Positions 11,146-63,075 of a stretch of 64,000 bases of DNA are shown one piece after another. Within the stretch, counting starts at the first letter, position 1. Each line of letters starts with the position of its first letter. The notes beneath the pieces are model-generated. The model saw only the letters and a list, made by a program, of their open reading frames with translations, did not search any database and was not told the DNA's origin. The DNA is from Siphonodentalium dalli. Its lineage: Eukaryota; Mollusca; Scaphopoda; Gadilida; Siphonodentaliidae. Made by a program: the position numbers and the translations under genes. The stretch lies in assembly GCA_032622095.1 (NCBI GenBank), contig CP136063.1, positions 219,499,982-219,563,981 of the forward strand, written 5' to 3'.

Positions 11146-12613
11146 TGAAATTTCGAGATGCCGGCAACCAAAATGCTAATATTGTCCTATATATCACTTT
11201 TTCAGTCACTGCGTTCATAAAAGAATTTGAACATACAAAGGTGGCAATAAAAAGACCAATGACGAGTCTTCTAAATCATCGTCATCATTGTTGTAAATCG
11301 AATCTAATCGATGTTGTAAAAATATTTAAGACTTCGTCGTTGGTCGCCATTTTAAGTTGTTGTTGTAAAATGACAGTCGTTCAAACTTTATCAGAACCAT
11401 GGTTATCATTTTACGGTGAATACCGAGCTTTGCCGAATGCTGCACTGATACAACTGATTCTGTGTACAGTATAAGGTAGCCTCGCGTTACCAACGAATCA
11501 CACGCCCGTTCGTCGAATGGAGCAACTTGACTGATTATCTGGAAACGTTTCTGGACACAGGCATATTTCCTTGTAAGCAAACATGGAAAAGGCTTGTGAA
11601 ATCAACAGTTCGCACATAAGAATGGATTAGCGATGTTTACAGCAACGAATCGCTGGCTTCAGCTCGGGATATTCACAGCCTGTCCAATGGACGTGATGTT
11701 TTGCATGTGTGAAAATGAAAATGAACTCGGTCACGCACAAACTGGTGTAACTCCCTATCAATATGCAATCTGCGAAACATGTGTTGGGAACGAATTATTG
11801 ATGGCATTGAAACCTTTTTTTTTCTTCCTGTATCCAGTGTTATGTAAGTGTTTGTCAATGTTCTTGTCAAAAACGGTGTTGCGTCAAACAGAACCAAGAT
11901 AATCATTACATGCAGACACAGCCACTTCCTCCCCATCAGTTGCACTCTTATAAGAGGCTAAACTTGTTGCCCAAGGCGTCTATCTAAATGGACCTACAAT
12001 ACATGTGGACTACTCTATGAATATGTGTGTGTATAAAACGTAATTGATATATTGTTATGTGTATATAGAATGTTTATACTCTCCGCATATGGAGACAATA
12101 AATAAATAAGATACATGACTGTTTGTTTTTAGAGTGCTGGCTCTGGTTGTCTCCTAAATTAATCTAAAATGATCACTGAAGTAATGCGCGTGACATTCGA
12201 CTCTGAGTAAATCAATTGAAAAATATTAATACCGCTGTACAAACTCCAGGCAGAATTATCTCCCATCGCTCCGCTGAGATACCACTGCCATAATTACATT
12301 AATTGGTAAGGAATTCTTACGTGTTTTTAGTTCTTATGTTTTAGGATTAAAATTGTCTATGTCTGGCTCAGTTCATATTGTTCTTATCAATACCGAAAGA
12401 ATTACCATTATTGCAAACTTAAAAAAACATTTGGTGGTCAAAACAAGATAATAGGTGACTAAATAGTAGTAAATACAGATTTGACGATTTGTAAAAATAG
12501 ATTTATCGTCTGAAAAGTACACTCATTGTGGCAGTGATATATCGCAGCGATAGCGTAGAGGGCGCTGTATGGAGTTTGACCGCTGCCCGGTTTCTGTGTG
12601 CGCGTCTCCTTTA
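11146..12613. other. No confident gene; poly(A)-like signal at 12098
   Basis: Short open frames occur on both strands, but none has a family signature or consistent splice sites. A minus-strand ATG near 11351 in good context (AAAATGGCGACC) opens only 21 codons. AATAAATAAATAA at about 12098 could be a plus-strand poly(A) signal, but no matching gene is recognised. Confidence 0.35.
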
Positions 12614-14688
12614 AGACAGCGACCCGGATGGAGGCGCCTAAATCAACGAAAGTTAGGATAGCGACCAGGATGGAGGCGTCTAAAATCTAAATCCACGTTA
12701 GTAAGGATAGCGACCCCGATGGAGGCGCCTAAATCCACGTTAGTTAGGATAGCGACCCGGATCAGCGCCTAAATCCCCGAAAGTTATGATAGCGACCCGG
12801 ATGGAGGCGTCTAAATCCACGAAAATTAGGATAGTGACCCGGATGGAGGTGTCTAAATCCCCGAAAGTTAGGATAGCGACCCGGATGGAGGCGTCTAAAT
12901 CCCCGAAAGTTAGGATAGCGACCCGGATGGAGGCGCCTAAATCCACGAAAGTTATGATAGCGACCCGGATGGAGACGTCTAAATCCACGAAAGTTAGGAT
13001 AACGACCCAAATGGAGGCGCCTAAATCATCGAAAGTTATGATAGCGACCCGGATGGAGGCACCTAAATCCACGTTAGTTAGGATAGCGACCCGGATGGTA
13101 GGGTCCGACGAATCGGCAATTTCAACATCGAATCGAATCTCGAATCGAATCATGATAATGATTCGAAATCGAATCGAATCTCGAATCGAATCTTTTTAGT
13201 AGTTTCTTTAGTTGATTCGCGTTACCGGTCAGTTGGAGGTACGGGCAAAAATGCGGGCAAAATTAATGTCAGATGATTTTATAACGTCAGTGAGATAACT
13301 CAGATTACGAAGGAGGTTCATTCAACTTACTTGCTATCACATGATATTAACAATATTTAATCACAGTTTAAAACAGTTTAATATATGAGAATGGCACGAC
13401 ATCATTTCATATTTTGTGCCACTGTCACTGTGCGTGAAGTTCGTGAAAAGTCAGCAGTTTGGAGTCAATTGAGTCTGATTCAAGTCATTGCAAACGGAAA
13501 CTCTGCTGCGCATGTTCGCTTCACCCTGTCGCGCACAGCAGACACACGCGATATCAAAATTGCTCATCGTGACTTGGGAATGGCGCATACGCAAACGATA
13601 TTACAGAGAACTATATATATAGTATCCCAACTTGGGCCTGTTCGTCGGAATGATGTTTAAAGATGTTGGTCGAATTTGGAGACGATATGTTTATTTAATA
13701 TATTTATATCGTTTTAATTTTGAATTAAAAAAAATATGATATTATTTGATTGAGCTGAGTAACATAGTATAGGCTTTTCTGGTAAGAATGTCATAAAACG
13801 ACATACAAATATTTCCCACCAGAAATTCACTCGCTTCAGCAGCTGGGGCCGGGCTATATCGCGACATTGCTGGTTTTATGTGGTGGAGGAAACCGTGTGC
13901 GCTATGGTACAATCGCAATGAACACGCGAACCATCACAGACCTATACCTGCAGGTTGCACGAGTTGCACCGACTTTCCACAAGTAACCAGGACTGAGACT
14001 GGGGGCCAATATATATATGAGCAGTGAGATTTTGGGCGACTTACCATATACGCATTGGACCACGGAGGTTCCAGGTGGTCGCGGAAAGAGAATCGGGTTA
14101 AGTATTTGGGATATAATGAACAATTGTTATAGATAATGCAGTCTATTTCCGGTGATAAAGGACTTGTATATTATATATATAACGATTCGAAATATCCCGA
14201 ATCTGCCGACCGCTTTCGAATCGAATCGAATCGGAACGGAAGATTCGAAATCGAATCGAATCTCGAAGCTTCGTCGGGCCCTACCGGATGGAGGCGTCTA
14301 AATCCCCGAAAGTTAGGATAGCGACCCGGATGGAGGCGCTTAAATCCACGAAAGTTAGAATAGCGACCCGGATGGAGGCGTCTAAATCCCCGAAAGTTAG
14401 GATAGCGACCCGGATGGAGGCGTCTAAATCCCCGAAAGTTAGGATAGCGACCCGGATGGAGGCGTCTAAATCCCCGAAAGTTAGGATAGCGACCCGGATG
14501 GAGGCGTCCAAATCCACGAAAGTTAGGATAGCGGCCCGGATGGAGGCGTCTAAATCAGCGAAGTTAGGATAGCGCACAGGATAGAGGCGCCTAAATCCAC
14601 GAAAGTTAAGATAGCGACCCGGCTGGAGGCGTCTAATCCACGAAAGTTAGGACCGCGACCCGGATAGAGGCGTCTAAATCCCCGAAAG
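12614..14688. repeat. 42-bp satellite, array A (split by a hAT insertion)
   Basis: This is tandem 42-bp sequence built on GGATGGAGGCGTCTAAATCC, then CCGAAAGTTAGGATAGCGACCC. The main variants are CGCC for CGTC and CCACG for CCCCG. The portions 12614-13098 and 14284-14688 total about 21 units once the 13099-14283 insertion is removed. Because 42 is a multiple of three, long open frames arise on both strands; I treat these as by-products. Confidence 0.95.
13099..14283. mobile_element. Non-autonomous hAT-type transposon inserted in the satellite
   Basis: The 1185-bp element begins TAGGGTCCGACGAA and ends TTCGTCGGGCCCTA, inverted repeats with one mismatch. It is flanked by the 8-bp direct repeat CCGGATGG (13091-13098 and 14284-14291), which is part of the satellite unit; 8-bp duplications are characteristic of hAT. 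Subterminal regions at both ends are packed with GAATCGAATC words (about 13130-13190 and 14215-14262). The interior shows no transposase domain. Confidence 0.92.
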
Positions 14689-15864
14689 TTATAGGCCAGG
14701 CAAATATGGACATAGGTGTCGCCTGGAGAGGGAATTTATGAGACCTACATTTTTGGTTAGCGTAAATACTAAACTTTCGGAATCCGTATGTTGGATTTGT
14801 CAGATAGGCGGACTTTTTTCTCACCGCGTGGTTTTCTTGAGGCACCCGATGAAAAAATCGGTCATTTTTTAAATAAAGCCGATATTTTTGACAGAGTATT
14901 TTCATACATTTGGAGCAGGGGGGGGGGTCGGAAAAAAATTTCAGGCACGTATGGCATTTTTCCCCTTTCGATCATTTTTTGTACCCACCCACCCCCACCG
15001 CCAATTTTTTTTTCCGTTTTCGGCAGTTTTTTCCGACCATTTTTTGACACCCACCCCCCCTTTTAACACTAAAACAGAGATTTGCGGGGGGAAATTTACT
15101 GTAAACAGCTGTATATGAATTTCTGTGCATACTATTTATCATGGATGATGGATGTTAACATGGACATGTGAATAGGAATGAGTCATTTTGAGGTCATTCG
15201 GCCAAAAAAACATGGCTGCCAGCGGCCATCTTGGATTTCAAAATTTGCAACAAAATACAACACGATAACTGCCTGCAGTCAGTTTACCAGTTAGAATTAC
15301 ATTATTTCTCTCATTCAAACTGATTCAAAGTGGTTTTGAAGCCCAACTCATTGCCAAAACACTAAAAACAAGCAGGAATTTTTTTTTTTAGTTGCGGAAA
15401 AAATTGCTTGTTGGTGGCTTTGACCACCCACCCACCCCGGCATACGTGCCGGAAGAAATTTTTTCACCCCCCCCCCCCCCTGTTTGGAGAAGAAATATTC
15501 GTCCAATTTTGATACATGAGAGTGGGGCGATAACCAGAGTAGGGTAAAACATGCAACCATTGAATATCGGAATTGCAGTCATGACGTCATGTGACGTCAA
15601 ATAATATTTTGGTTGAGACAAATATGACGATTCAAGAACAGCGTTGTCTTTCGTTTCTTTTAAATCATAAATTAAGACGGGTATGCCACATTGTTCTATA
15701 TCATGGGAAACTACTGCCAATTGGCTATATTTTGATATATAACTATTTTTTATCAGAGGCTGTCAGAGGCACACAAATCAACCCTCCCCCCTAAAGTTAA
15801 GATGCGCCATGCTGTGGTATAAGGCGCACATAACTCACGGTTACATGTCAATAGGCTTAATTAA
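14689..15864. other. Non-coding stretch with two poly-G/C repeat copies
   Basis: Two copies of the homopolymer-bearing repeat occur in opposite orientation: about 14915-15060 (GGGG, GTCGGAAAAAAATTTCAG, then GCACGTATGGC) and about 15390-15482 (ending CCGGAAGAAATTTTTTCACC and a C run). They share the GCACGTATG and CATACGTGC words and CCACCCACCC tracts. No gene is seen. Confidence 0.5.
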
Positions 15865-17097: not shown

Positions 17098-20000
17098 ACC
17101 CGGATGGAGGCGCCTAACTTAACGAAAGTTAGGATAGCGATCCGGATAGAGGCGTCTAAATCCACGAACGTTAGGATAGCGACCCGTATGGAGGCGTCTA
17201 AATCCACGAAAGTTATGATAGCGACCCGGATGGAGGCGTCTAAATTCCCGAAAGTTAAGATAGCTACCCGGATGGAGGTGTCTAAATCCCCGAAAGTTAC
17301 GATAGCGACCCGGATGGAGGCGTCTAAATCCCCGAAAGTTAGGATAGCGACCCGGATGGAGGCGCCTAAACCACGAAAGTTCTGATAGCGACCCGGATGG
17401 AGGCGTCTAAATTCCCGAAAGTTAAGATAGCGACCCGGATGGAGGTGTCTAAATCCCCGAAAGTTATGATAGCGACAGGGCGGAGGCGTCTAAATCCACG
17501 AAAGTTAGAATAGCGACCCGGATGGAGGCGTCTAAATCAGCGCAGTTAGGATAGCGACCAGGATAGAGGCGCCTAAATCCACGAAAGTTAAGATAGCGAC
17601 CCAGATGGAGGCGTCTAAATCCACGTTAGTTAGGATAGTTACTCTAAATCCCCGAAAGTTATTATAGCGACCCGGATGGATGCGTCTAAATCCACGAAAG
17701 TTAGGATAGCGACCCGATTGGAGGTGTCTAAATCCCCGAAAGTTAGGATAGCGACCCGGATGGATGCGTCTAAATCCACGTTAGTTAGGATAGTGACCCG
17801 GGTGGAGGCGCTTAAATCCCCGAAAGTTAGGACAGCGATCCGGATGAAGGCGCCTAAATCCCCGAAAGTTAAGATAGCGACCCGGATGGAGGCGCCTAAA
17901 TCCACGAAAGTTAGGATAGCGACCCGGATGGAGGCTTCTAAATCCACGATAGTTATGATAGCGACCCGGATGGAGGCGTCTAAATCCACGAAAGTTAGGA
18001 TAGCGACCCGGTTGGAGGCGCCTAAATCCACGAAAGTTAGGATAGAGACCCGGATGGAGGCGTCTAAATTCACAAAAGTTAAGATAGCGACCCGGATGGA
18101 GGCGTCTAAATCCCCGAAAATTATGATAGCGACCCGGATGGAAGCGTCTAAATCCCATCCGGGTCGCTATCCTAACTTTCGCTGTCTAAATCCCCGTTGG
18201 AGGCGCCTAAATCCTAGAAAGTTAGGATAGAGACCCGGATGGAGGCGTCTAAATCCACGAAAGTTAAGATAGCGACCCGGATGGAGGCGTCTAAATCCCC
18301 GAAAATTATGATAGCGACCCGGATGGAAGCGTCTAAATCCCATCCGGGTCGCTATCCTAACTTTCGCTGTCTAAATCCCCGAAAGTTAGGATAGCGACCC
18401 GGATGGAGGCTCTTAAGTCCACGAAAGTTAGAATAGCGACCCGGATTGAGGCGTCTAAATCCACGAAAGTTAGGATAGCGACCCGGAAGGAGGCGTCTAA
18501 ATCCCCGAAAGTGAGGATAGCGACCCGGATAGAGGCGTCTAAATAATCGAAAGTTAGGATAGCGACCCGGATGGAGGCGTCTAAATCATCGAAATTAGGA
18601 TAGCGACCCGGATAGAGGCGCCTAAATCCACGAAAGTTATGATAGCGATCCGGATGGAGGCGTCTAAATCCCCGAAAGTTATGATAGCGACCCGGATGGA
18701 TGCGTCTAAATCCCCGAAAGTTAGGATAGCTACCCGGATGGAAGCGTCTAAATCCCCGAAATTTAGGATAGCGACCCGGATGGAGGCGTCTAAATCCACG
18801 AAAGTTAAGATAGCGACCCGGATGGAGGCGTCTTAATCCCCGAAAGTTAAGATAGCGACCCGGATGGAGGCGTCTAAATCCACGAAAGTTATGATAGCGA
18901 CCCGGATGGAGGCGTCTAAATCCCCGAAAGTTAAAATAGCGACACGGATGGAGGCGTCTAAATACCCGAGAGTTAGGATAGCTACCCGGATGGAGGCGTC
19001 TAAATCCCCGACAGTTAAGATAGCGACCCGGATGGGGGCGTCTAAATCCACGAAAGTTAGGATAGCGACCCGGATGGAGGCGTATAAATCCACGAAAGTT
19101 AGGATAGCGACCTGGAGGGAGGCGTCTAAATCCACGAAAGTTAGGATAGCGATCCGGATGGAGGCGTCTAAATCCCGAAAGTTAGGATAGCGACCCGGAT
19201 GGAGACGTCTAAATCCACGAAAGTTAGGATAGCGACCAAAATGGAGGCGCCTTAATCATCGAAAGTTAGGATAGCGACCCGGATGGAGGCGCCTAAATTC
19301 ACGTTAGTTAGAATAGTCACCCGGATGAAAGCGCCTAAATCCCGAAAGTTAGGATAGCGATCCGGATGGAGGCGCCTTAATCATCGAAAGTTAGGATAGC
19401 GACCCGGATGGAAGCGTCTAAATCCCCGAAAATTAAGATAGCGACCCGGACGGAGGCGTCTAAATCCACGAAAGTTAGGATAGCGACCCGGATGGATGCG
19501 TCTAAATCCACGAAAGTTAGGATAGCGACCCGGATGGAGGCCTCTAAATCCCCGAAAGTTAGGATAGCGACCCGGATGGAGGCGCTTAAATCCACGAAAG
19601 ATAGGATAGCGACCCGGATAGAGACGTCTAAATCCCCGAAAGATAGGATAGCGACCCGGATGGAGACGCCTAAATCCACAAAAGTTATTATAGCGACCAG
19701 GATGGAGGCGTCTAAATACACGTTAGTTAGGATAGTGACCCGGGTGGAAGCGCCTAAATCCCCGAAAGTTATGATAGCGACCCGGATGGAGTCGTCTAAT
19801 CCACGAAAGTTAGGATAGCGACCCGGATGGAGGCGTCTAAATCCCGAAAGTTAGGATAGCGACCCGGATGGAGACGTCTAAATCCACGAAAGTTAGGAGG
19901 ATAGCGACCCAAATGGAGGCGCCTTAATCATCGAAAGTTAGGATAGCGACCCGGATGGAGGCGCCTAAATCCACGTTAGTTAGGATAGTCACCCGGATGG

Positions 20001-22978
20001 AAGCGCCTAAATCCCTGAAAGTTATGATAGCGACCCGGATGGAGGCGTCTAAATCCACGAAAGTTAGGATAGCGACCCGCATTGAAGCGTCTAAATCCCC
20101 GAAAGTTAAGATAGCGACCCGGATGGAGGCGTCTAAATCCACAAAAGTTAGGATAGCGACCCGAATGGAGGCGTCTAAATCCACGAAAGATAGGATAGCG
20201 ACCCGGATGGAGGCCTCTAAATCCACGAAAGTTAGGATAGCGACCCGGATGGAGGCGCTTAAATCCACGAAAGATAGGATAGCGACCCGGATGGAGACGC
20301 CTAAATGCACGAAAGTTATTATAGCGACCCGGATGGAGGCGTCTAAATCCACGTTAGTTAGGATAGTGACCCGGATGGAAGCGCCTAAATCCCCAAAAGT
20401 TATGATAGCGACCCGGATGGAGGCGTCTAAATCCCGAAAGTTAAGATAGCGACCCGGATGGAGGCCTCTAAATCCCGAAAGTTAAGATAGCGATCCGGAT
20501 GGAGGCGTCTAAATCCCCGAAAGTTAGGATGGCTTCCCGGATGGAGGCGTATAAATCTACGAAAGTTAGGATAGCGACCCGGATGGAGGCGTCAAAATCC
20601 CCGAAAGTTATGATAGCGACCCGGATGGAGGCGTCTAAATCCCCGAAAGTTAAGATAGCGACCCGGATGGAGGCGTGTAAATCCCTGAACATTATGATAG
20701 CGACCCGGATGGAGGCGTCTAAATCCACGAAAGTTAAGATAGCGACCCTGATGGAGGCGTCTAAATCCCCGAAAGTTATGATAACTACCCGGATGGAGGC
20801 TTCTAAATCCCCGAAAGTTAGAATAGCGACCCGGATGGACGCGTCTAAATCCCCGAAAGTTATGATAGCGACCCTATTGGAGGCGTCTAAATCCCCGAAA
20901 GTTAGGATAGCGACCCTATTGGAGGCGTCTAAATCCACGAAATATAGGATAGCGACCCGGATGGAGGCGCCTAAATCCCCGAAAGTTAGGATAGCGACCC
21001 GGATGGAGGCGCCAAATCCCCGAAAGTTAGGATAGCGACCCGGATGGAGGCGCCTAAATCAACGAAAGTTAGGATAGCGACCCGGATGGAGGCGCATAAA
21101 TCCACGAAAGTTAGGATAGCGACCCGGATGGAGGCGTCTAAATCCCCGAAAATTATGATAGCGACCCGGATGAAGGCGTCTTAATCCCCGAAAATTATTA
21201 TAGCGACCCGGATGGAGGCGTCTAAATCCACGAAAGTTAAGATAGCGACCCGGATGGAGGCGTCTAAATCCCCGAAAGTTATGATAACTACCCGGATGGA
21301 GGCGTCTAAATCCCCGAAAGTTATGATAACTACCCGGATGGAGGCGTCTAAATCTCCGAAAGTTAGGATAGCGACCCGGATGGGGGCGTCTAAATCCCCG
21401 AAAGTTAGGATAGCGACCCTATTGGAGGCGTCTAAATCCCCGAAAGTTAGGATAGCGACCCTATTGGAGGCGTCTAAATCCACGAAATATAGGATAGCGA
21501 CCCGGATGGAGGCGCCAAAATCCCCGAAAGTTAGGATAGCGACCCGGATGGAGGCGCCAAATCGCCGAAAGTTAGGATAGCGACCCGGATGGAGGCGCCT
21601 AAATCCACGAAAGTTAGGATAGCGACCCGGATGGAGGCGCATAAATCCACGAAAGTTAGGATAGCGACCCGGATGGAGGCGTCTAAATCCAAGAAAGTTA
21701 GGATAGCGACCCGGATGGAGGCGTCTAAATCCACGAAAGTTAGGACAGCGACCCAGTTGGAGGCGCCTAAATCCACGAAAGTTAAGATAGCGACCCGGAT
21801 GGAGGCGTCTAAATCCCCGAAAATTATGATAGCGACCCGGATGAAGGCGTCTTAATCCCCGAAAATTATTATAGCGACCCGGATGGAGGCGTCTAAATCC
21901 ACGAAAGTTAAGATAGCGACCCGGATGGAGGCGTCTAAATCCCCGAAAGTTATGATAACTACCCGGATGGAGGCGTCTAAATCTCCGAAAGTTAGGATAG
22001 CGACCCGGATGGAGGCGTCTAAATCCCCGAAAGTTAGGATAGCGACCCTATTGGAGGCGTCTAAATCCCCGAAAGTTAGGATAGCGACCCTATTGGAGGC
22101 GTCTAAATCCCCGAAAGTTAGGATAGCGATCCGGATGGAGGCGCCTAAATCCCCGAAAGTTAAGATAGCGACCCGGATGGAGGCGCCTAAATCCACGAAA
22201 GTTAGGATAGCGACCCGGATGGAGGCTTCTAAATCCACGATAGTTATGATAGCGACCCGGATGGAGGGGTCTAAATCCACGAAAGTTAGGATAGCGACCC
22301 GGTTGGAGGCGCCTAAATCCACGAAAGTTAGGATAGAGACCCGGATGGAGGCGTCTAAATCCCCGAAAGTTAGGATAGCGACCCGGATGGAGGCTCTTAA
22401 TTCCACGAAAGTTAGAATAGCGACCCGGATTGAGGCGTCTAAATCCACGAAAGTTAGGATAGCGACCCGGATGGAGGCGTCTAAATCCCCGAAAGTGAGG
22501 ATAGCGACCCGGATAGAGGCGTCTAAATCCACGAAAGTTAGGATAGCGACCCGGATGGAGGCGTCTAAATCATCGAATTTAGGATAGCGACCCGGATAGA
22601 GGCGCCTAAATCCACGAAAGTTATGATAGCGATCCGGATGGAGGCGTCTAAATCCCCGAAAGTTATGATAGCGACCCGGATGGATGCGTCTAAATCCCCG
22701 AAAGTTAGGATAGCTACCCGGATGGAGGCGTCTAAATCCCCGAAATTTAGGATAGCGATCCGGATGGAGGCGTCTAAATCCACGAAAGTTAAGATAGCGA
22801 CCCGGATGGAGGCGTCTTAATCCCCGAAAGTTAAGATAGCGACCCGGATGGAGTCGTCTAAATCCACGAAAGTTATGATAGCGACCCGGATGGAGGCGTC
22901 TAAATCCACGAAAGTTATGATAGCGACCCGGATGGAGGCGTCTAAATCCCCGAAAGTTAGGATAGCGACCCGGATGGA
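17098..22978. repeat. 42-bp satellite, array B (about 140 units)
   Basis: This is the same unit as array A over 5.9 kb. Units are mostly exactly 42 bp, with occasional 1-2 nt indels (for example near 19173 and 20433). Higher-order structure is visible: 18370-18850 is nearly repeated at 22355-22835, 17815-18060 at 22125-22350, and a block with CTATTGGAGG and ATAACTACCC variants occurs near 20700-21060, 21180-21560 and 21840-22130. Short inverted half-units occur at 18156-18181 and 18341-18366. Translated frames give 14-residue repeats such as MEASKSPKVRIATR (plus) and DLDASIRVAILTFG (minus). Confidence 0.95.
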
Positions 22979-23789
22979 GCTTAATTTGTGAAACCATTTT
23001 GCCAAAATTTCCTGTAGTTCAAAATAGATTTTCTCACAATATGTCAGGAATTTCTGTGTGCAATTTGGTACACGCGATTAATGTGACAAAATATTTAAGA
23101 TCCATCAACCCGTTTGACGGTATAACCTCATTTTCTTTAATTTAATGGCGTGAACAATATTTTTAAATTCATTGCTTTCAGGTACCAAGAACTTCTGTAA
23201 AATAATCTCTTACAATTTTTGACTGAATGTATGCATGTATATAGGCCTTCATAGCCAATGACAAGACTTTGCATACCAAGAGTTCAAATCGCGGTATGTT
23301 AGCAGGGACAGTGGGTGACTCACCCCCCCCCCCCCCACCAAACTTTAGTCCAGATTTTCAACAGTTCATGTCTGACGCAATACCAGTTTTTTTATTAGAT
23401 TGAAATTGTTCTAATAGTTTGATTTTCGATCAGTAATTAATGAGGAATTTGTTGTTTTTAGACCAGAAATCTTTTTTATTGAAATGGTCATTAGTTGGAA
23501 ATTGTCTAACCTTAGTGGGGTGTCAGGTTGGAAATGTTCGACAGTTGTAATCCTTGAGGTAAATACCAGTTAGAAACTCCAACCCAATTGGGGTGCAAAT
23601 AGTCTTTCCTGAACTTGGTAATTTGGGTCTAGGCTGGTTCAAGGGGATCCAGATGGGAAAATATAATATGGACACCCCGTTCCCCCCATGAGACCCTCTA
23701 GCCACGTCTCTGTATATAAGTACACGATTCATAATTCGACATTGAAAGGCTCACGTGTGGTATTTACGGTTGGCCTACTGCGATAATGC
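22979..23789. other. No gene seen
   Basis: Unique-looking sequence between the satellite and the 23790 repeat, with a C homopolymer near 23322-23336. No exon or domain is recognised. Confidence 0.4.
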
Positions 23790-49400: not shown

Positions 49401-52400
49401 CCAAATAAAAATTGAGATGTAAAACGGGACGTAACTTTGGCAAATATAAATAATAGAACTGAACTGAAATTCAGTCACAGCCTATATGTAACCTTCGTAA
49501 CAATTTTCAGGAATTCTGTTGCTTTCTAGAGATAGACATATTTTTATCCAAGAGTGTCTCGGACTACATCATTTATGCATGACCCATACACCTTCCAATT
49601 TGTTAATCCGATAATTTTAACACTTACCCCATATGACTTTTCCGCCCTGTGTAACTAAACCTAATTCACTGATGTTAACCTGAAATGAATCAATGTTCAC
49701 AATTCAAGACTGATTATAGTGTGTCTGTCATTTGCAGAATGAGGTCCCCAGAGGGTTAATTTAGTGATGCTATCCCGCAAAGCGGGCTAGCATCACCAAA
49801 TTCACCCTCTGAGGACCTCATTCTGCATGGCCTCAACATACTCAGATTTGAAGTTCCCAAATGGTGAATATTGTGATGTACACCCATTAGGAACCTTGAT
49901 TATGCAATTTGTCGTTGGGGATATAGAGAAACTAAACTAAAAAAGAAACAGAATCTATGTGATGAAGTTTCTATAGAATTTGATAATAAAGAAACTTTAC
50001 AGAGAAGATGAGGTCTTAGCATAATGAGGTCCCCAGAGGGTGAATTTAGTTATGCTAGCCCACTATGTGGGATAGCTTCACTAAAATCACACTCTGGGGA
50101 CCTCATTCTGCAAATGACAGGCACACTAAACTCAGGCTTGTCACAACTACTTCAACTAAAATTTCCTTTCTGTGATGACTGTTTAGCTCATAAAAATGCT
50201 GAAGGAACCAGCTGAAGGAACTAATTTGATTGTGGTTGACTGACAGTAACATGGTGTGGCATTGATGGCTTGTAGCCAACGTTCAACGTCATCCAGACCT
50301 TCGATTTCAATGTGTGCTACAGTTCTTGTGCATGCAGGACACGGCAAATGTTTTTTAAAACTTCGCTATTATATGTGCGCACAAGTAATATTTTAAATCA
50401 ATGATTATATTCACACTGAAAGGGATAATTCAGTCAACATCCACCATTCAAGGACCACCGAGGACCACTATTTTGGCATAGTCAACGACAAGCCTTGCAA
50501 TATTTATTATATTTTATCGACCGTTCTTCATGCTGACCCAGATCCCATGTTAATTAGTCAACAAAACATTTTCTCCCCAAAATAGACATAAGATTTGTTT
50601 CGAAATTTTAATATGTTGTGAATTTAGGCAATTGACAGAAAATATCGAAGCGATATTGTGATCAGCGAATAAATTAACAGGATAAATCCTCACATCTAAC
50701 ATGTGGATACAATCACAAATATAAAGAATTTGGTTAAGATAATTAATTGTGCTCTAGATTTCGATTACAAAGACATTTTGGACAAAAAATGCTGAAAAAT
50801 TCAGAGAGTGCTACATGTAAAGGTAAATTTAAAGTAATTATACCACTGGAGTAGGGAACTCACACATGGTGGTCACGCTAGTGGCTTCTTTGATATCGCA
50901 TCGGCCAGAAGAGGCCTCCTTATTTGAATACATTTATTGCAGTAATACTCATATCCACAGGACGAATAGAGTAGCTAAGAAGGGAAAACTGTTCCTAAAC
51001 CAGGCCTGAAAATAGGGTGCACAACATTTTCAGAATGAGGTTCCCAGAGGGTGAATTTAGTGATGATACAATGCACAGCGCGCTAGAGTCACTAAATTCA
51101 CCTTCTGGAGACCTCATTCTGCTTAGGACTCATCTTCTCTAGAATATCTTTGGTATCACATTAAGTTTTTTTTAGTTTCTTTAGAAAGTTTCTTTTTCTT
51201 TTTTAGTTTAGTTTCTCTGTATCCCCAAATTTTCAGATGACACAATGGATAATCGAGGTGCCCAATCACCATCTGGGAACTTAAATCTCAATCTTTTATG
51301 TAATAATAATAATAAATTATGTAATAAAACCCATAAATTCTAAATATGCAAAAAAGTCCTTTCGCACAAGCCTGAGTTTAGTGTGCCTGTCATTTGCATA
51401 ATGAGGTCCCCCAGAGGGTGAATTTAGTGTCACTATCCCACATAGTGGGCTAGCATCACTAAATTCACCCTCTGGGGACACAATGGATAATCGAGGTGCC
51501 CAATCACCATCTGGGAACTTAAATCTTAATCTATTATGTAATAATAATAAATTATGTAATAAAACCCATAAATTCTAAACATGCAAAAAAGACCTTTCGC
51601 ACAAGCCTGAGTTTAGTGTGCAAGTCATTTGCATAATAAGGTCCCCAGAATTTGAATTTGGTGACACTATCCCACATAGCGGGCTAGCATAACTAAATTC
51701 ACCCTCTGGGGACACAATGGATAATCGAGGTGCCCAATCACCATCTGGGAACTTAAATCTTAATCTATTATGTAATAATAATAAATTATGTAATAAAACC
51801 CATAGATTCTAAATATGCAAAAAAGTCCTTTCGCATAAGTCTGAGTTTAGTGTGCCTGTCATTTGCAGAATAAGGTCCCCAGAGGATGAATTTAGTGACG
51901 CTATCCCACATAGCGGGCTAGCATCACTAAATTCACCCTTTGGGGACCTCATTCTGCATGGCCTCATCTGCTATGGGAGACAGAGACTCAGATTGAAGTT
52001 CCCAAATGGTAAATATTGTTATGTACACCCATTGGGAACCTTGATTATGCATTGTGTCGTCTGCCAATTTGGGGATATAGAGAAATTAATCTAAAAAAGA
52101 AATAGAATCGAAGTTACTATAGAAATTTATTAATAAAGAAAATTTCTAGAGAAGATGAGGCCTAAGCAGAATGAGGTCCCCACAGGGTGAATTTAGTGAT
52201 GCTAGCCTGCTATGTTGGATAGTGTCACTAAATTCACCCTCTGGGGACCTCTGGGGAGCTGGGGTTTTACTTACCTCGATGACCGTTCCTTTCGTGATGA
52301 TACCAAGAGTAGTGTACATTGTTGAGCTCGGGTTTTTCTTCACACCAATTATCGGAAGACAGAATGTTGCTTTCAACTCTGGGTGAGTTACATGAGCTTT

Positions 52401-55400
52401 TTTAAATCTCAGTCCCTGTAAATTACAACACATATATTAACAGTCTGGATAAATCCTATTACTATATCTGAGTTGAGATTGTGTGGCATCATTCAAAGGG
52501 ACTCATGGTGTTCGAAATCGGTTCATGTGAAATAACATACAAGTCTGTGAAACTTCTATCGTCAACAAGTAGAAGAAAACATGGATTAACTTTGTTCTTA
52601 TTTTCACTATTAATAAGGCAAAAAAAGGTTTTGATTCCATAGGCACCGCCGCATTGAAAAAAATGGCCCACGTTGGACCGATTTCAGATTTCCCCGAAGA
52701 AAATAGGAAACTGTCACATGGAAATTAGTTATGTTTCAAATATCGAATAGAAGCTAAATACAATGGTGTATGTGTGGGTATTCAACAAAAACCATAGGCA
52801 ACGATAACTATCAGGTATATTGTTACCAGGCTGTCCAATGAGTGAAATGCTTACCATTGGCTGTATAAACTGCTCAAATTTGTGAGGTTTACAAGTGAAA
52901 TGCTTACCATTAGCTGTATAAACCACTCAAATTTGGGAGGTTTACGAGTGAAATGCTTACCATTGGTCATATAAACCGCTCATATTTGGAAGGTTTAAGG
53001 GTGAAATGCTTACCATTGGCCGTATGAACCGCTCAAATTTTGGAGGTTTACGGGTGAAACCTTCACCCACATAACACACTTTGGTAACCATTCGTTTCCA
53101 TGCTTTCCCTGCAAAGAGATCAGAGTAAGGACATTAAAGTAACATATCTGTGTTCTCAGGCAATTAGATCTCAATAAGGACATTAAAGTAACATATCTGT
53201 GTTCTCAGGCAATTAGATCTCAATAAGGACATTAAAGTAACATATCTGTGTTCTCAGGCAATTAGATCTCAATAAGGACATTAAAGTAACATATCTGTGT
53301 TCTCAGGCAATTAGATCTCAATAAAGACATTAAAGTAACATATCTGTGTTCTAAGGCAATTAGATCTCAATAAGGACATTAAAGTAACATATCTGTGTTC
53401 TCAGGCAATTAGATCTCAATAAGGACATTAAAGTAACATATCTGTGTTCTCAGGCAATTAGATCTGTTTTAAGATGAGGGAGGGAGGATATTTATTTTTT
53501 ATTTTTTTTGTCTCAAAATATGGAAAACATACTCCAGAAAGAAAACAAAATAAATTTTGTTGTTCAAATCCAATATTTCTAAGAGAAAATGTTGAAAAAA
53601 TGTTTGACAATGTTAGTTAAAAGAAAATTTCAGTGACGAGAGGGCACCTGAGAACACATAATTTTATTTATTTGGCCTAAGAAACATACTATTTTTAACA
53701 TCAGACAATTGTTTTATCACCGTGAATTATAGAGTAAGTAAGATAGGGCTATCTTTTTGGTAGCTGCATATTACTATCCTCACAGGAGAAATACTAAATA
53801 CTGGTTAGAAAATCAAACTATGAAACCATGTGCAACCCATTTTCGATGTGTAATATCCAACTGATGTTGTGATAGGCATGAAACTTCCAACAGTTGATTT
53901 TTTTTAATCTAAGCTGGGGAGGTTGTCAGACACCGAACCCAGTCACCATGTCCATGCATATATAGAACTCATTTCTTTCCATATTACTTCTCACACTGCA
54001 ATAAAAGTTAAAATGAGGGATGGAGGTGGGGGAGCTCACTGGCTGTATGTTCATCTCAATAGTAAATCAAAGTATTTTTTAATGTATATTGTTTGTATTT
54101 GAGTTAGTTTCTTGTTCCGAATCAAGTATAAAAGTAATTTTTCCTTGTGTATTGTAAAACTGTGTTTTAAGTCGGTTAATGGACTTGTGACTGGACATTT
54201 GGAAACTAAATGGTTTCCGAAATGTCCAGTAGCTCATGCATTAAATCTGACAGAATAAAAGGTCGCTGACCAAAATCTCCCCCGACAAAGGTGGCAGGTT
54301 TGAAGAATTAATGGGTTTCAGATCCCTATACTAAAAACTGTAGGAGGAATTGATAACACCAATATGATTAGTGTTGAAACGATTAATCGACTAATCGAAA
54401 TCGACGCGATTATTAAATTAGTCGATTCCGAAATCGGCTAGTCGACTAGTCGGAACACACCCACCACCATTATGCCATCGCAAAAGCAGTGCCGTTGCTG
54501 CCGTTACCGAATTACTGGACAATTTAAACAATCAGGCTATCGAAATACACAATCACAATTAGCTTGTTAAAAAGCCTTCTTTGTTGTCCCTTTGATGCGA
54601 TAACTGCTTTCAGTACTTGGTGGTCATGCACGAGCGTGAAACCCAATGACCTCAACTCAATGTATTTGTCGGCGCCGCGGCGGCTTATTCTTTGAAGTTG
54701 AGACGGCCGGCTTTGATAATCAACTTCAAAGAATCAGTGCCTATCGCAACCGTGTTTATTTCGGCGTGACGGAATTGATCTGAGTGGTAACTGGTCAACG
54801 TGTTTGCAGGTGTGCAGGACTCAACTTCAATCAAGTTAGTTGCGAGGTGACATTATTAAGTTTTAAGTTTAATAACAAGTCCAATATATTACAGTTTATA
54901 GAAGCACTATGTCAGTATACCTTTAAAGTTTATTTGTAAAATTGTGTGATATTTTTACAACCACCACATGCATCAACTGACACATGGGTGAGCGTATACG
55001 ATCGCACGTTCTAGATATATTGTATTATAGATATAAATATAAAGCCAACCCGCCGTCGGCCATGCTATGCATCGAATAGTGTCGCGTATTTCAAACTAAA
55101 CTGGCGAGTCACTTCGGAAATCCCACGTCGTTTATGGGCTGTGTTTGTGAAAAATTACAATGTATTTTAGCACCTCAAACTTAAATCCTTCGCGGAATTG
55201 GGCGGTGACAAAGCTGTTCCCAGAAACGTAATCTGGATGACGCAAATTCCTGGAATCGGGCTAAATATAGAACTTACGACATCGAATTGAAATGTACTAT
55301 TAACATCGCCGGTCTGCGCAGTTTTATTACTGAAACTGACACAATCGATTGTGTATTCGGGGACTCGCGAGTAAAATTGTATATATTGTATATATATTTA

Positions 55401-61400: not shown

Positions 61401-63075
61401 CGAGACCGTAGTTATAACTACGGATATGACAAAACGACAAGTGATCGAAAGAACACAAACTCAAGTGATGTAGTACCTATTCGTAATTCTTAGCAGCAGT
61501 GGTGTGAAAGGTGGCTATTTATGCCTAGTTTTTCCTGGTTTGACTACTTACGCCTAGATTTTCCTGTTTTGACTATTTTAAATGCTTCAGTCTCACTGAC
61601 ACCTTTCACTTTTGGTAATGGAACATCCCATTTCCCCTGAAAATTGAAAGAAATTGGTGCTTATCATCAATAAAGCTACAACATTAAAATAGCCTGGTTA
61701 TGAACATTTAGGTTGCCAACCACACATCCCACAAAAAATGTTATTTTCTTATGTGGTTGGCTTTTTTTTTTTAAATCGGACTTTGGTAAAAATTGAAAAT
61801 TAGAATGGCAAAAAGAGGAAGGGGAATAACTCTGTGAAAATTATTTTTGCTCTGTCGTCCATATACATGTTACAGATTAGCAATAAATGGGCAACATTTT
61901 TCTGAATTTTCAATTCTCTACATTCAACACATTTCAACACTACCAATTTCTCTCCCCTGAATTTTGTCATCTGTGCTTTTTAAATTGCTATGTTGACTTT
62001 ATTTCTATTTCTCAGGGCTATCAGAGCTCTATTGGTTAGAAGAAACTTATTTAGTGACATTCGCTCTGTCATGGTCTACTTGGGGTTGACAATGGTCAAC
62101 TTTAGTAAAAGAAATTTGCAAAATTGGGCATTTTGTGTGTGCAAACCAAGGGGCATAACTCATCTATAAATAGTACCGACAAACCAAAGTAAAAATATCT
62201 ACCATCTCTGTAAAAAATATATATTGCTTGATCGGGCCTATGCCAAAGATAATGGCTTAGCACAGATTTGAAATACAGTACCCACTTTTTCATTTTTCAC
62301 ATTTACCCACTGCAAAGAGCTGCGAGTGCCTAATATTGGTTTATAGAAAATAGCAACAGCACCAAAAACATGATGTGCCATTAAGAAAAGCGACCAAGAC
62401 ATAATCCGTGCATCGGTGATAGGTTTTACATTAATTTTGCAACTCACAGCTTTTTCTTTCCTCTTCTGTTTAATGGTATTTGATAAGACTTTAGCCCTGG
62501 TCTGGCCTTCTCTGTCCAACAGATATGTCGGTATAGCTCCATCTGGTACCTCCTCCTTCTTCTTCTGTTTTGTCTTTTTCTCTTCGTGCATTTTCATCCT
62601 GTAAATGAGTTTTGTCATTTCCTTTTTGATCATGTTATGATTGGGTTGGGGATTGGAGGGGGAATTCAAGCATGGACAAATTTGCATCCACGGATGGAGG
62701 GACAGACAAAATAGCTGATTCCTATATACCCCCCCCCCCCCCCCCACAATAACTTTGTTACTGGGGGTATAAAAAACATTAACTCTCATTGAGCTTTCCG
62801 ATGAATGGCAACATGACGTATTTCCGACTAAATCCTGAAAAGTTACTCATAATTCTGCTGTGGTTAAGGAGTCGATTATTTAGGGCATTACTGTAGGATA
62901 AAGATGTGTCCTCGGACAGAATGAGGGATGCATAAGTTCATTCCAATAACCCCACTCAAAATTTTTATTTTTTTTGCAGGATATATACTAGGCTGCCCAT
63001 TCAAGCAGAAGGCATACTCACGTCTTTTTCATCTGGACCTTTTCAGAAAACCTCTGCTTGTTGAACAACTTGGCT
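46397..63075 (-). CDS. NSA2: Ribosome biogenesis protein NSA2 (seven exons; 5' end off the window)
   Basis: NSA2 is a nucleolar assembly factor of the pre-60S ribosomal particle, needed for 27S pre-rRNA processing; its C-terminal half is related to the S8e fold. Seven minus-strand exons give a continuous 214-codon reading: 63022-63075, 62448-62598, 61552-61636, 53014-53108, 52275-52415, 49628-49679 and 46397-46464. All introns are GT-AG and all joins keep phase. Diagnostic segments are [60 protein letters not shown] and [15 protein letters not shown]. Animal NSA2 has about 260 residues, so about 46 N-terminal codons lie beyond 64000. No internal stop or lost residue is seen, so the gene looks functional. 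Introns range from 423 to about 8440 nt and carry most of the mobile DNA on this side. Confidence 0.97.
46465..48825. other. NSA2 last intron, part without a supported feature
   Basis: Mostly AT-rich intron. A GC-richer patch at about 47800-47950 contains GTAAGAC, then GTCTTAC and repeated GAGTC or GACTC words and probably belongs to an old repeat. Short open frames here have no family signature. Confidence 0.4.
48826..49150 (-). pseudogene. CRVCD zinc-finger-like N-terminal module, copy 1
   Basis: A minus-strand frame from about 49041 reads [20 protein letters not shown] and continues open to 48829. It has a C-x2-C pair like the start of an animal zinc-finger protein family with SRxKLTxxxCRVCG-type N-termini (my recollection of the family, not verified). 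Its first codon is GTG where ATG would be expected, so it may be dead. Upstream it shares TGTCAATCA and CACGTG words and the TGACGTCA motif (49120-49127) with copy 2 at 60403-60660. It lies in an NSA2 intron on the same strand. Confidence 0.45.
49628..49679 (-). CDS. NSA2: NSA2 exon
   Basis: The acceptor is CATTTCAG and the donor GTAAGT. 52 nt (17 codons plus one base). It encodes [17 protein letters not shown] with the next Gly split. A foldback element ends about 25 nt upstream of the acceptor in transcript order. Confidence 0.95.
49705..50140. mobile_element. Nested foldback element, copy 3 (next to an NSA2 acceptor)
   Basis: The outer arms CAAGACTGATTATAGTGTGT, then CTGTCATTTGCAGAATGAGG, pair with GGACCTCATTCTGCAAATGA, then CAGGCACACTAAACTCAGG. 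Each end contains a foldback module (49735-49826 and 50021-50112). The left edge lies about 24 bp from the NSA2 3' splice site at 49680-49681. The middle has TTGATTATGCA, the complement of the ATAATCGAGG region of the other copies. Confidence 0.88.
50141..51015. other. Intron sequence, nothing recognised
   Basis: About 870 bp of NSA2 intron between two foldback loci. AT-rich, with no repeat or frame of note. Confidence 0.4.
51016..52256. mobile_element. Nested foldback locus, copy 4, with internal tandem expansion
   Basis: It contains five foldback modules at about 51030-51122, 51399-51480, 51630-51717, 51867-51957 and 52160-52256. A unit of about 236 bp starting CACAATGGATAATCGAGGTG begins at 51241, 51479 and 51713, so the interior plus one module was tandemly multiplied. 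The right end lies about 18 bp inside the intron from the NSA2 5' splice site at 52274. TAATAATAA microsatellites occur in each unit. Confidence 0.88.
52275..52415 (-). CDS. NSA2: NSA2 exon
   Basis: The acceptor is AATTTACAG and the donor GTAAGT. Exactly 47 codons, phase 0 at both ends. It includes [19 protein letters not shown] and ITKGTVIE. A foldback element begins about 20 nt after its donor. Confidence 0.97.
52842..53058. repeat. 53-bp tandem array derived from NSA2 exon end plus 5' splice site
   Basis: There are four units, beginning at 52842, 52895, 52948 and 53001, exactly 53 bp apart. On the minus strand each reads like CGTAAACCTCC, then AAATTTGAG, GGTTTATA, CCAATG and GTAAGCATTTCAC. 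That is the last 13 codons of the 53014-53108 exon, its donor, and about 13 nt of intron. The copy at 53001 contains the true exon end. The other three have substitutions, and the 52948 copy has an in-frame TGA. All four keep GTAAGC. The joint falls at TTTCACCC or TTTCAC, present both in the exon and just after the donor. Confidence 0.95.
53014..53108 (-). CDS. NSA2: NSA2 exon flanked by splice-site-derived tandem arrays
   Basis: The acceptor is CTCTTTGCAG and the donor GTAAGC. 95 nt (two bases plus 31 codons). It encodes [19 protein letters not shown] and [12 protein letters not shown]. The 3' end of the exon plus the donor is repeated three more times directly downstream, and the acceptor region is repeated upstream. 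The choice of 53013 as the used donor rests on the first copy being the only one in frame with the intact upstream exon. Confidence 0.95.
53109..53466. repeat. 49-bp tandem array that includes the NSA2 3' splice site
   Basis: About seven units of 49 bp (CAATTAGATCTCAATAAGGA, then CATTAAAGTAACATATCTGT and GTTCTCAGG on the plus strand) have starts at 53161, 53210, 53259, 53308, 53357, 53406 and 53455. They are almost identical. The segment 53109-53160 is a diverged first unit. There GCAAAGAGATCAGAGTAAGG replaces GCAATTAGATCTCAATAAGG, and this is the stretch carrying the functional acceptor CTTTGCAG. Confidence 0.93.
53467..54368. other. Intron sequence between tandem array and hAT element
   Basis: NSA2 intron. 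Near 53860-53930, ATCCAACTGATG, ATGAAACTTCCAAC and similar words recall the repeats at 40.8-41.4 kb. A TGGACATTTGGAAACTAAAT and GAAATGTCCAG hairpin lies near 54192-54230. No exon is seen. Confidence 0.4.
54369..56290. mobile_element. hAT-type transposon (1922 bp), probably transposase-dead
   Basis: The ends TAGTGTTGAAACGATTA and TAATCGTTTCAACACTA are perfect inverted repeats, flanked by the 8-bp direct repeat AATATGAT (54361-54368 and 56291-56298). Subterminal ATTAGTCGACTA-like words are dense at both ends. A plus-strand frame at 55694-55900 ends with two Cys (CSIVC) and LKEHFYTKH, resembling a worn BED zinc finger as found at hAT transposase N-termini. No catalytic region is left. It lies in the largest NSA2 intron. 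Confidence 0.93.
56299..57020. other. Intron sequence, nothing recognised
   Basis: NSA2 intron between two transposons. A GAGAGGCCGATCACGAT word near 56404 also occurs near 6226, marking a small shared repeat. A C run lies at 56861. No exon is seen. Confidence 0.4.
57023..58344. mobile_element. TA-flanked DNA element with 13-bp terminal inverted repeats
   Basis: The ends CCGTACTGACCCG and CGGGTCAGTACGG are perfect inverted repeats with TA on both outer sides (57021-57022 and 58345-58346), the target pattern of Tc1/mariner-type elements. GTTTAAGCCCAC is repeated in direct orientation at about 57055, 57110 and 58273, near both ends. The 1.3-kb interior has no transposase frame, so it is non-autonomous. 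The superfamily is inferred from the TA only. Confidence 0.85.
58347..59329. other. Intron sequence, nothing recognised
   Basis: About 980 bp of AT-rich NSA2 intron, ending in a T-rich tract (59217-59247). No coding, RNA or repeat feature can be supported. Confidence 0.4.
59330..59710. repeat. Dispersed LINE/SINE 3' fragment, duplicated unit
   Basis: Two diverged units (GTCATAACTCC or GCCATAACTC, then TCAAACCCA, TTCG, CTCGATCTGTATTTTGGGCT, GTTTGAGTTAT) are followed by GTAAAGTGTCTATGGAGAGA, a GACAGACGGACA run and ACGACACTATGTTTACC. The same tail occurs at 7090-7215, and a relative of the body occurs at 44230-44740. It is the non-coding end of a retroelement. Confidence 0.65.
60403..60660 (-). 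pseudogene. CRVCD zinc-finger-like N-terminal module, copy 2
   Basis: The minus-strand frame reads [13 protein letters not shown] and then about 25 residues before a stop at about 60406. Copy 1 at 48826-49150 has [10 protein letters not shown] at the same place. Both are preceded by a CACGTG word, a TGTCAATCA word and a TGACGT-containing motif (here TGTGACGTAATTTGGGGAAA on the plus strand). No good ATG lies in frame near the module, so it looks decayed. It sits in the largest NSA2 intron. Confidence 0.4.
60700..61065. repeat. Diverged duplicate of a retroelement-like unit of about 175 bp
   Basis: Two units share CCCATGCTGGTTGA, ATCTGTG, AAATTGA and TGGAAAATGACGGAATACAG. Before the second is AAAGGGCAATAACTCCGTCA, the usual opening of this repeat vocabulary. 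A hairpin with ATGTTTAC and GTAAACAT lies at 60713-60751. Confidence 0.6.
61148..61328. repeat. 34-bp tandem array, about 5 units
   Basis: The unit is GATTACAAAGAGATAGATAT and TAAGGCCACGAGGT, with single-base variants. It lies in the NSA2 intron about 220 bp downstream of the 61552-61636 exon's donor. Confidence 0.93.
61552..61636 (-). CDS. NSA2: NSA2 exon
   Basis: The acceptor is ATTTTCAG and the donor GTAAGT. 85 nt (28 codons plus one base). It encodes [13 protein letters not shown], then [15 protein letters not shown]; the next Arg is split. A large intron of about 8.4 kb follows. Confidence 0.94.
62448..62598 (-). CDS. NSA2: NSA2 exon
   Basis: The acceptor is TTTACAG and the donor GTGAGT. 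151 nt (one base plus 50 codons, ending phase 0). It contains the very conserved [16 protein letters not shown] and IKQKRKEKA segments. The open frame runs past both ends of the exon into the introns, but similarity to NSA2 stops at the splice sites. Confidence 0.96.
62788..62895. repeat. Single arm of the 4560-4777 palindrome
   Basis: GAGCTTTCCGATGAATGGCA through TTTCCGACTAAATCCTGAAA and AGCATTACTGTA-type sequence matches the right arm at 4669-4777 with about 10 percent differences. The other arm is absent. It lies in the NSA2 intron next to a C run (62730-62747). Confidence 0.85.
63022..63075 (-). CDS. NSA2: NSA2 exon (first visible)
   Basis: The acceptor is GTTTACAG and the donor GTGAGT. 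The 54 nt consist of one base, 17 codons and two bases. It encodes [17 protein letters not shown], with the following Thr split across the intron. Confidence 0.93.

Follow-up and report, generated by a model that had tools for sequence, protein, structure and literature searches.

Tandem copies of a splice donor and of a MITE end flank exon 7 of NSA2, and splice-site-spanning arrays recur at conserved exons of the same genome

Exon 7 of the gene NSA2 in the scaphopod Siphonodentalium dalli lies between two tandem arrays (Table 1), which, judging from the sequence, are probably the products of two unrelated repeat events: a tolerated local duplication of the exon's own splice donor on the downstream side, and on the upstream side the insertion of a MITE with a multiplied end. 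Arrays whose unit contains an exon–intron border are also found at one other exon of this gene and at exons of other conserved genes. This recurrence across genes is more interesting than the NSA2 locus itself, and the exon 7 donor array is a good natural experiment. The gene lies on the minus strand of the window, by which we mean the whole stretch of 64,000 nucleotides analysed, which comes from contig 3 in an assembly of nine contigs and 2.23 Gb.

Table 1. Features at and near exon 7 of NSA2, in window positions
Feature	Position	Strand	Description
Donor-side array	52841..53059	-	Four 53-bp copies, in each of which GTAAGCA follows 46 nt of exon end, and a remnant of 7 nt; TRF and copy comparison
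NSA2 exon 7 (95 nt)	53014..53108	-	Exon-proximal, frame-keeping donor at 53013; in-frame joins to exons 6 and 8
NSA2 exon 8	52275..52415	-	Next exon; donor 1 of exon 7 joins in frame
Duplication of exon end and donor, 29-bp unit, 2.1 copies	61515..61575	-	At donor of exon 6 (exon 61636-61552)
PIF/Harbinger-like MITE, including multiplied 3' end	53129..53677	-	Starts GGCCAAATAAATAAAAT, ends AATGTCC; imperfect terminal inverted repeats of ~31 bp
49-bp array, the tandem 3' end of the MITE	53126..53465	-	TRF 6.9 copies, 98%, score 666
Target-site duplication TTA, 5' side of MITE	53678..53680	-	
Target-site duplication TTA, 3' side of MITE	53126..53128	-	
Host intron end CTCTGATCTCTTTGCAG, real acceptor of exon 7	53109..53125	-	Outside the target-site duplication of the MITE

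NSA2 and its duplicated donors

An NSA2 frame of 260 residues was assembled from nine coding exons (E2–E10), all in frame and with GT..AG borders; the initiator ATG is assumed and presumed to lie on a separate first exon, and the first two coding exons lie outside the window (in L025). The assembled protein matches the Pfam family Ribosomal_S8e (PF01201, E 3.9e-40) and, given the assumed initiator, the full-length frame of this family member is intact. The first-pass annotation had assigned exon 7 to NSA2, which is borne out both by this frame and by a PDB match (E 9.9e-16), in which 31 residues align with NSA2 residues 144–174 at 90% identity. Searching the genome with the Ribosomal_S8e family gave four matches, of which three lie at a single other locus of contig 3, probably RPS8, and the fourth is exon 8 of NSA2; as the search recovered only one exon of the NSA2 gene, it is weak evidence against a second NSA2. 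At the DNA level, exon 7 together with its donor array matches nothing in the genome but itself, which argues that the donor array is derived from the gene. An Rfam scan of the window gave no matches at gathering thresholds.

The 53-bp unit described by the first-pass annotation does occur four times downstream of exon 7, in an array that TRF places at 52840-53059 and scores at 328 (4.2 copies, 86% match) and whose four copies can be aligned. All of them have kept GTAAGC, as had been stated, with G+1 of the four minus-strand donors at 53013, 52960, 52907 and 52854; each donor reads AATG followed across the border by GTAAGCATT, the four are identical over 13 nt, and their U1 duplex energies are equal (-8.0 each). 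Pairwise divergence among the copies is 0.09–0.19, with 14 of the 53 columns variable, and the changes are spread evenly over the three codon positions (4/6/4), which argues that the additional copies are evolving like noncoding DNA. The in-frame TGA noted earlier is in copy 2. The first base of the array is exon position -46; the array opens with TTTCACCC and closes with GTAAGCATTTCACT, TTTCAC being repeated at both; this is the microhomology between exon and intron start that had been proposed at the duplication joint, and it fits the first duplication.

Inflation of copy numbers by the assembler is a very improbable source of these arrays. Units that are 98% identical, as in the 49-bp array, or near-identical, as in two of the surveyed arrays described below (L104 and L177), could be miscounted, but the differences among copies 1–4 of the 53-bp unit mark them as distinct old sequences, and arrays of the same class stand at several unlinked places.

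When exon 7 is joined to exon 8 by donor 1, the extra donor copies fall inside a 598-nt intron. The 260-residue frame needs no extra intron, so the locus is not a case of intron gain by tandem duplication. Use of donor 2, 3 or 4 would extend exon 7 by 53, 106 or 159 nt, and in the computed mRNAs each of them leads to a premature stop 189–298 nt upstream of the last exon junction. The view that the copies are tolerated since the exon-proximal site wins, one of those offered by the first-pass annotation, is the best supported, by these stops and by the preference for the first donor in a human reporter study (PMC6783452). We thus favour a history in which a short tandem duplication over the border of exon 7 and its intron would have been seeded at a TTTCAC(C/T)C microhomology and then amplified to four copies through unequal exchange or slippage, with the exon-proximal copy remaining functional and copies 2–4 decaying as intron. 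Splicing would take the first donor transcribed, and products of donors 2–4, which carry a premature stop, would be removed by nonsense-mediated decay.

A two-copy repeat overlooked by the first-pass annotation lies at the donor of exon 6, where the exon ends in CTAGGC, followed across the border by GTAAG; the donor of the second copy is mutated and reads ATAAAT. The repeat units at exon 7 and at exon 6 both include the exon–intron border, and two of the eight NSA2 donors (exons E2–E9) are duplicated together with their exon end.

A MITE end upstream of the acceptor

Upstream of exon 7 the first-pass annotation had counted about seven copies of a 49-bp unit, the exon-proximal one carrying the acceptor, and had seen in the two arrays an independent amplification of both splice sites, each array being built from its own splice-site region. 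The copy number (6.9) is confirmed and the donor side of that account stands, but the acceptor lies beyond the target-site duplication of a MITE and the 49-bp unit is the 3' end of this dispersed element. Growth of the 49-bp array from the gene's acceptor, and with it the amplification of both sites, is therefore rejected.

The element is separated from exon 7, on the upstream side of the exon, by 17 nt plus TTA. Its terminal inverted repeats, aligned as typed consensus ends, begin with GGCC and differ at few positions over about 31 bp. A consensus 33-mer of its 3' end has 776 matches in the genome at up to 3 mismatches, compared to 0 for a reversed control. Twenty dispersed loci were fetched, selected by match score, and at these loci the 49-bp unit forms the 3' end of an element. 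A 5' end starting GGCCAAAT was resolved to the first base in 7 of the 20, as well as in L002 and in the window copy, and was partial or lacking in the other 13 of 22 rows. For the nine rows with both ends resolved, the length between the ends is 120–304 bp, and seven have TTA on both sides, one has TAA/TTA (L013) and one, inside an array, has neither (L002). Directly after the 3' end, TWA is found in 17 of the 20 rows in which that end is complete (the misses being L002, L010 and L023). The target-site duplication of PIF/Harbinger (Tourist-like) elements is a 3-bp TTA or TAA, and that of the MITE fits this rule.

Multiplied 3' ends are also present in other copies of the element, namely in an array on contig 1 (L002–L004) and, among the 20 fetched loci, at L006, L009, L010 and L023, a sample biased toward such ends by the choice on score. 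The contig 1 array (C1:19498215-19499578) contains the 3' end about 13 times, and multiplication of the element end is thus recurrent. At exon 7 TTA flanks element and array together, from which we infer that the element inserted near the acceptor and that its own 3' end was then multiplied about seven times. By eye, the acceptor stretch resembles the 49-bp unit only at GATCT and TTGC, and since it lies outside the target-site duplication the true acceptor of exon 7 is host sequence. An introner supplying the splice site was dropped as a candidate on the same grounds, the exon-side 17 nt and AG being host sequence. In the reading that we prefer, a nonautonomous PIF/Harbinger-like MITE would have inserted 17 nt plus TTA upstream of the exon and the host acceptor would have survived; what lies further upstream is now MITE, probably including part of the branch-point region.

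Other repeats are found in the same window. A second short palindromic repeat, starting CCCCAGAGGGTGAATTTAGTGATGCTA and present at 52175-52250 and 51239-51947, lies just past the exon 8 donor; it occurs in tandem and is also seen at L131 and L175. A 5.9-kb array at 17098-22979 has a 42-bp unit and also fits a period of 126 bp; arrays related to it lie at 12611-13098 and at 14284-14691.

Arrays at the borders of other conserved exons

We surveyed 142 conserved exons, consisting of 43 from CCT, 30 from myosin, 19 from proteasome and 28 from adaptin genes, then 22 more (18 AAA, 3 myosin and 1 CCT). Exons and flanks (250 bases for L026–L085, 1500 for L166–L175 and 400 for the rest) were scanned for adjacent repeats with units of 25–150 bp and an identity of at least 0.78; the first 60 exons were exploratory and the criteria were set before the later 82. 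Borders were the ends of HMM hits rather than annotated exon ends, and 283 of the 284 were covered (L035 is cut at the hit start). Paralogues are among the exons, not all of which are independent. The paralogous pair L072 and L074 was counted once, as were L129 and L130, which hold the same array; L142, an AT-rich repeat, was dropped though the script called it a 5' border, the HMM hit start there not being an exon edge. L184, L185 and L189 were fetched only for array extension.

With the two NSA2 cases excluded, splice-site-spanning arrays amount to nine independent events in the 142 exons (284 borders). Five are donor-type (L040, L043, L050, L072/L074 and L104), in CCT, myosin and proteasome exons, and four are acceptor-type (L029, L118 with four copies, L144 and L177), in CCT, adaptin, myosin and AAA exons. 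The donor pattern is therefore not singular but recurs in the same genome, both at exon 6 of NSA2 and in these other genes.

Several of the arrays are long. A proteasome-family exon (L104, C9:184587063-184588078) has seven copies of its exon end and donor in a 58-bp unit, the first being its own, with GTAAG in all seven. An AAA-ATPase exon (L177, C8:150238725-150239695, bases 1-480) is preceded by near-identical 71-bp copies of acceptor and exon start, six with its own, which is the last; this array may extend past the fetched stretch. At L144 with L185 (C4:291687600-291690011) the start motif of a myosin exon has 14 exact matches, 13 upstream plus its own, in a unit of 28/32 bp, and nearby L074 has a donor-type duplication in common with its paralogue L072. 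Several CCT exons occur twice within a few hundred kilobases (C1:54.1/54.27 Mb, C1:68.37/68.54 Mb, C7:133.43/133.49 Mb and C8:26.61/26.65 Mb), which suggests partial local gene duplications or uncollapsed haplotypes.

That the extra copies are kept as coding sequence was rejected, given the even codon-position changes, the stops and the lack of any excess of unit lengths divisible by three (4 of 11 events; for the mixed unit of L144 this count used 32, and the breakpoint table 62).

How many border events are to be expected depends on the background. Tandem arrays cover about 10% of random bases. A given base falls in a repeat seed with a probability of 0.018 in the random sample of 90 kb, of 0.014 in the window, and of 0.0036–0.0059 in intron beside the surveyed exons; the stricter of these last two rates excludes, and the looser includes, L131 and L175, where copies of another MITE lie side by side, and L178, a palindrome. 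The nine events compare to 5.1 expected from the random sample (P 0.076), 4.0 at the density of the window (P 0.021) and 1.0–1.7 from nearby intron (P 1.4e-6 to 6.1e-5). For the later 82 exons, four events compare to 2.95 (P 0.34), 2.3 (P 0.20) and 0.68–1.17 (P 0.005 to 0.03), respectively. Border arrays are thus above nearby intron and only about twice the rate of the genome at large, over which an excess is not clear.

These figures bear on the idea of a mutational hotspot, in which exon edges, and donors above all, would be preferred for short tandem duplication through some process linked to splice sites or to transcription. We consider it improbable. The comparisons with nearby intron speak for it, both overall and in the later 82 exons, as does the finding that six of the seven donor-type units, a set that takes in both NSA2 cases, end 5–13 nt into the intron, for which P is about 0.0003 under uniform placement with a cut-off chosen post hoc, or 0.007 for 5–20 nt. 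However, the random sample gives no such contrast, overall or in the later exons, the events are few, some exons are paralogous to one another, and the first 60 belong to the exploratory phase. It would be a long shot to go further and propose that tandem duplication in this lineage starts from the donors themselves, where DNA breaks made a few bases into the intron by some splice-site-linked process would repeatedly copy exon end and donor; several percent of conserved exons would then stand beside rows of equal sites, and correct splicing would depend on a strict first-donor rule and an unknown last-acceptor rule.

Within the coding stretches of the HMM hits (27,246 bases) no array was wholly contained, whereas the density of arrays in the random sample would predict 7.9 and that in nearby intron 3.0. 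Under a first-donor rule a duplication over a donor leaves the mRNA unchanged whereas one within an exon alters it, which would account for the survival of copies at borders but not within exons. In keeping with a tolerated duplication, border-spanning copies would recur in such an array-rich genome, those within coding exons being purged and those at borders being survivable.

Within the counted extra copies, variation is lower in the splice cores than at the other sites (3 of 130 sites compared to 103 of 1377, Fisher P 0.029, the copies not being independent; P 0.049 without L104 and L177, and 0.099 for the donor type alone). The count took only three L043 copies and two L144 copies, though more exist, and lies apart from L184, an extension of L043 in which four of eight exact motif copies lack GT at the donor. 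Low core variation and unit ends 5–13 nt into the intron fit poorly with plain tolerance or neutrality, the events being few and partly dependent.

The same observation enters into a further possibility, a regulatory dose switch, in which the downstream donors of exon 7 would be variably used and stop-carrying transcripts would tune NSA2 output by nonsense-mediated decay. It would be helped by the less variable cores, by three extra donors that are intact and equal to the first in U1 pairing, and by the early stop codon that each of them would bring, at a good distance before the last junction, but as read from the letters it seems quite unlikely. Retention of the seven donor columns across the 53-bp copies is weak (P about 0.10 on this array alone), and a 17-nt invariant run around the donor (P about 0.03) was picked post hoc. 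Moreover, the second donor of exon 6 is already lost, several L043 copies are without GT, and predicted RNA pairing shows no clear difference separating donor 1 from the other exon 7 donors, for which reason pairing was also rejected as the cause of donor choice.

Tolerated donor duplication beside a MITE insertion thus remains our preferred explanation for exon 7. A point against it is that four of the nine surveyed events are acceptor-type, while the first-donor rule, known from human reporters, covers donors; acceptor arrays need a different rule.

Relation to known systems

Splice-site duplications are of a known kind that is apparently frequent in this genome. For splice-site arrays recurring over the conserved genes of one genome, we found no report among the matches listed in searches of the open-access literature, subscription papers being mostly outside the search. 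A paper on the clam Donax is reportedly cited for MITE-linked satellite arrays, and a 2007 PNAS paper is said, from its title, to concern human introns from tandem arrays.

Tandem repeats in MITEs give rise to satellite arrays, as with Xstir and miDNA4 in Xenopus, according to a review (PMC12628747). The likeness is in a short nonautonomous element tied to a tandem array; however, miDNA4 is described there as Tc1/mariner, whereas the element here is PIF/Harbinger-like, the repeated part is the end at its 3' terminal inverted repeat, and the array abuts an acceptor.

For genes of human segmental duplications, tandem repeats at exon–intron boundaries and 27 intron modifications are reported in PMC2812944. 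Those repeats are likewise internal and tandem and contain the border, but they differ from one young primate paralogue to another and can give rise to introns, whereas the exons here are conserved housekeeping ones and the copies lie within an existing intron. Intron gain when coding sequence that holds a proto-splice site is duplicated in tandem, buffered by decay of mis-spliced RNA, is put forward in PMC2891723, and a case from potato in PMC4974935. Both involve short tandem duplication of exon sequence bearing splice signals, as here; the difference is that here the copies are of a donor or acceptor already in place, and a new intron is unnecessary.

A parallel for site choice is the reporter study in human K562 cells (PMC6783452), in which the first of two equal donors is predominantly used, native donor spacings are 2–77 nt, and no first-come rule was seen for tandem acceptors. 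The six near-identical acceptors of L177 are therefore the hardest case. Its libraries resemble the present arrays in having two donors tens of bases apart with the first favoured at equal strength, but they are designed pairs in human cells, while the arrays of this genome are natural and have from two up to about eight donors. Such natural rows of equal donors or acceptors, spaced by a few tens of bases, allow the choice among identical sites to be tested as they stand, and if the survey holds genome-wide there would be very many of them in essential genes.
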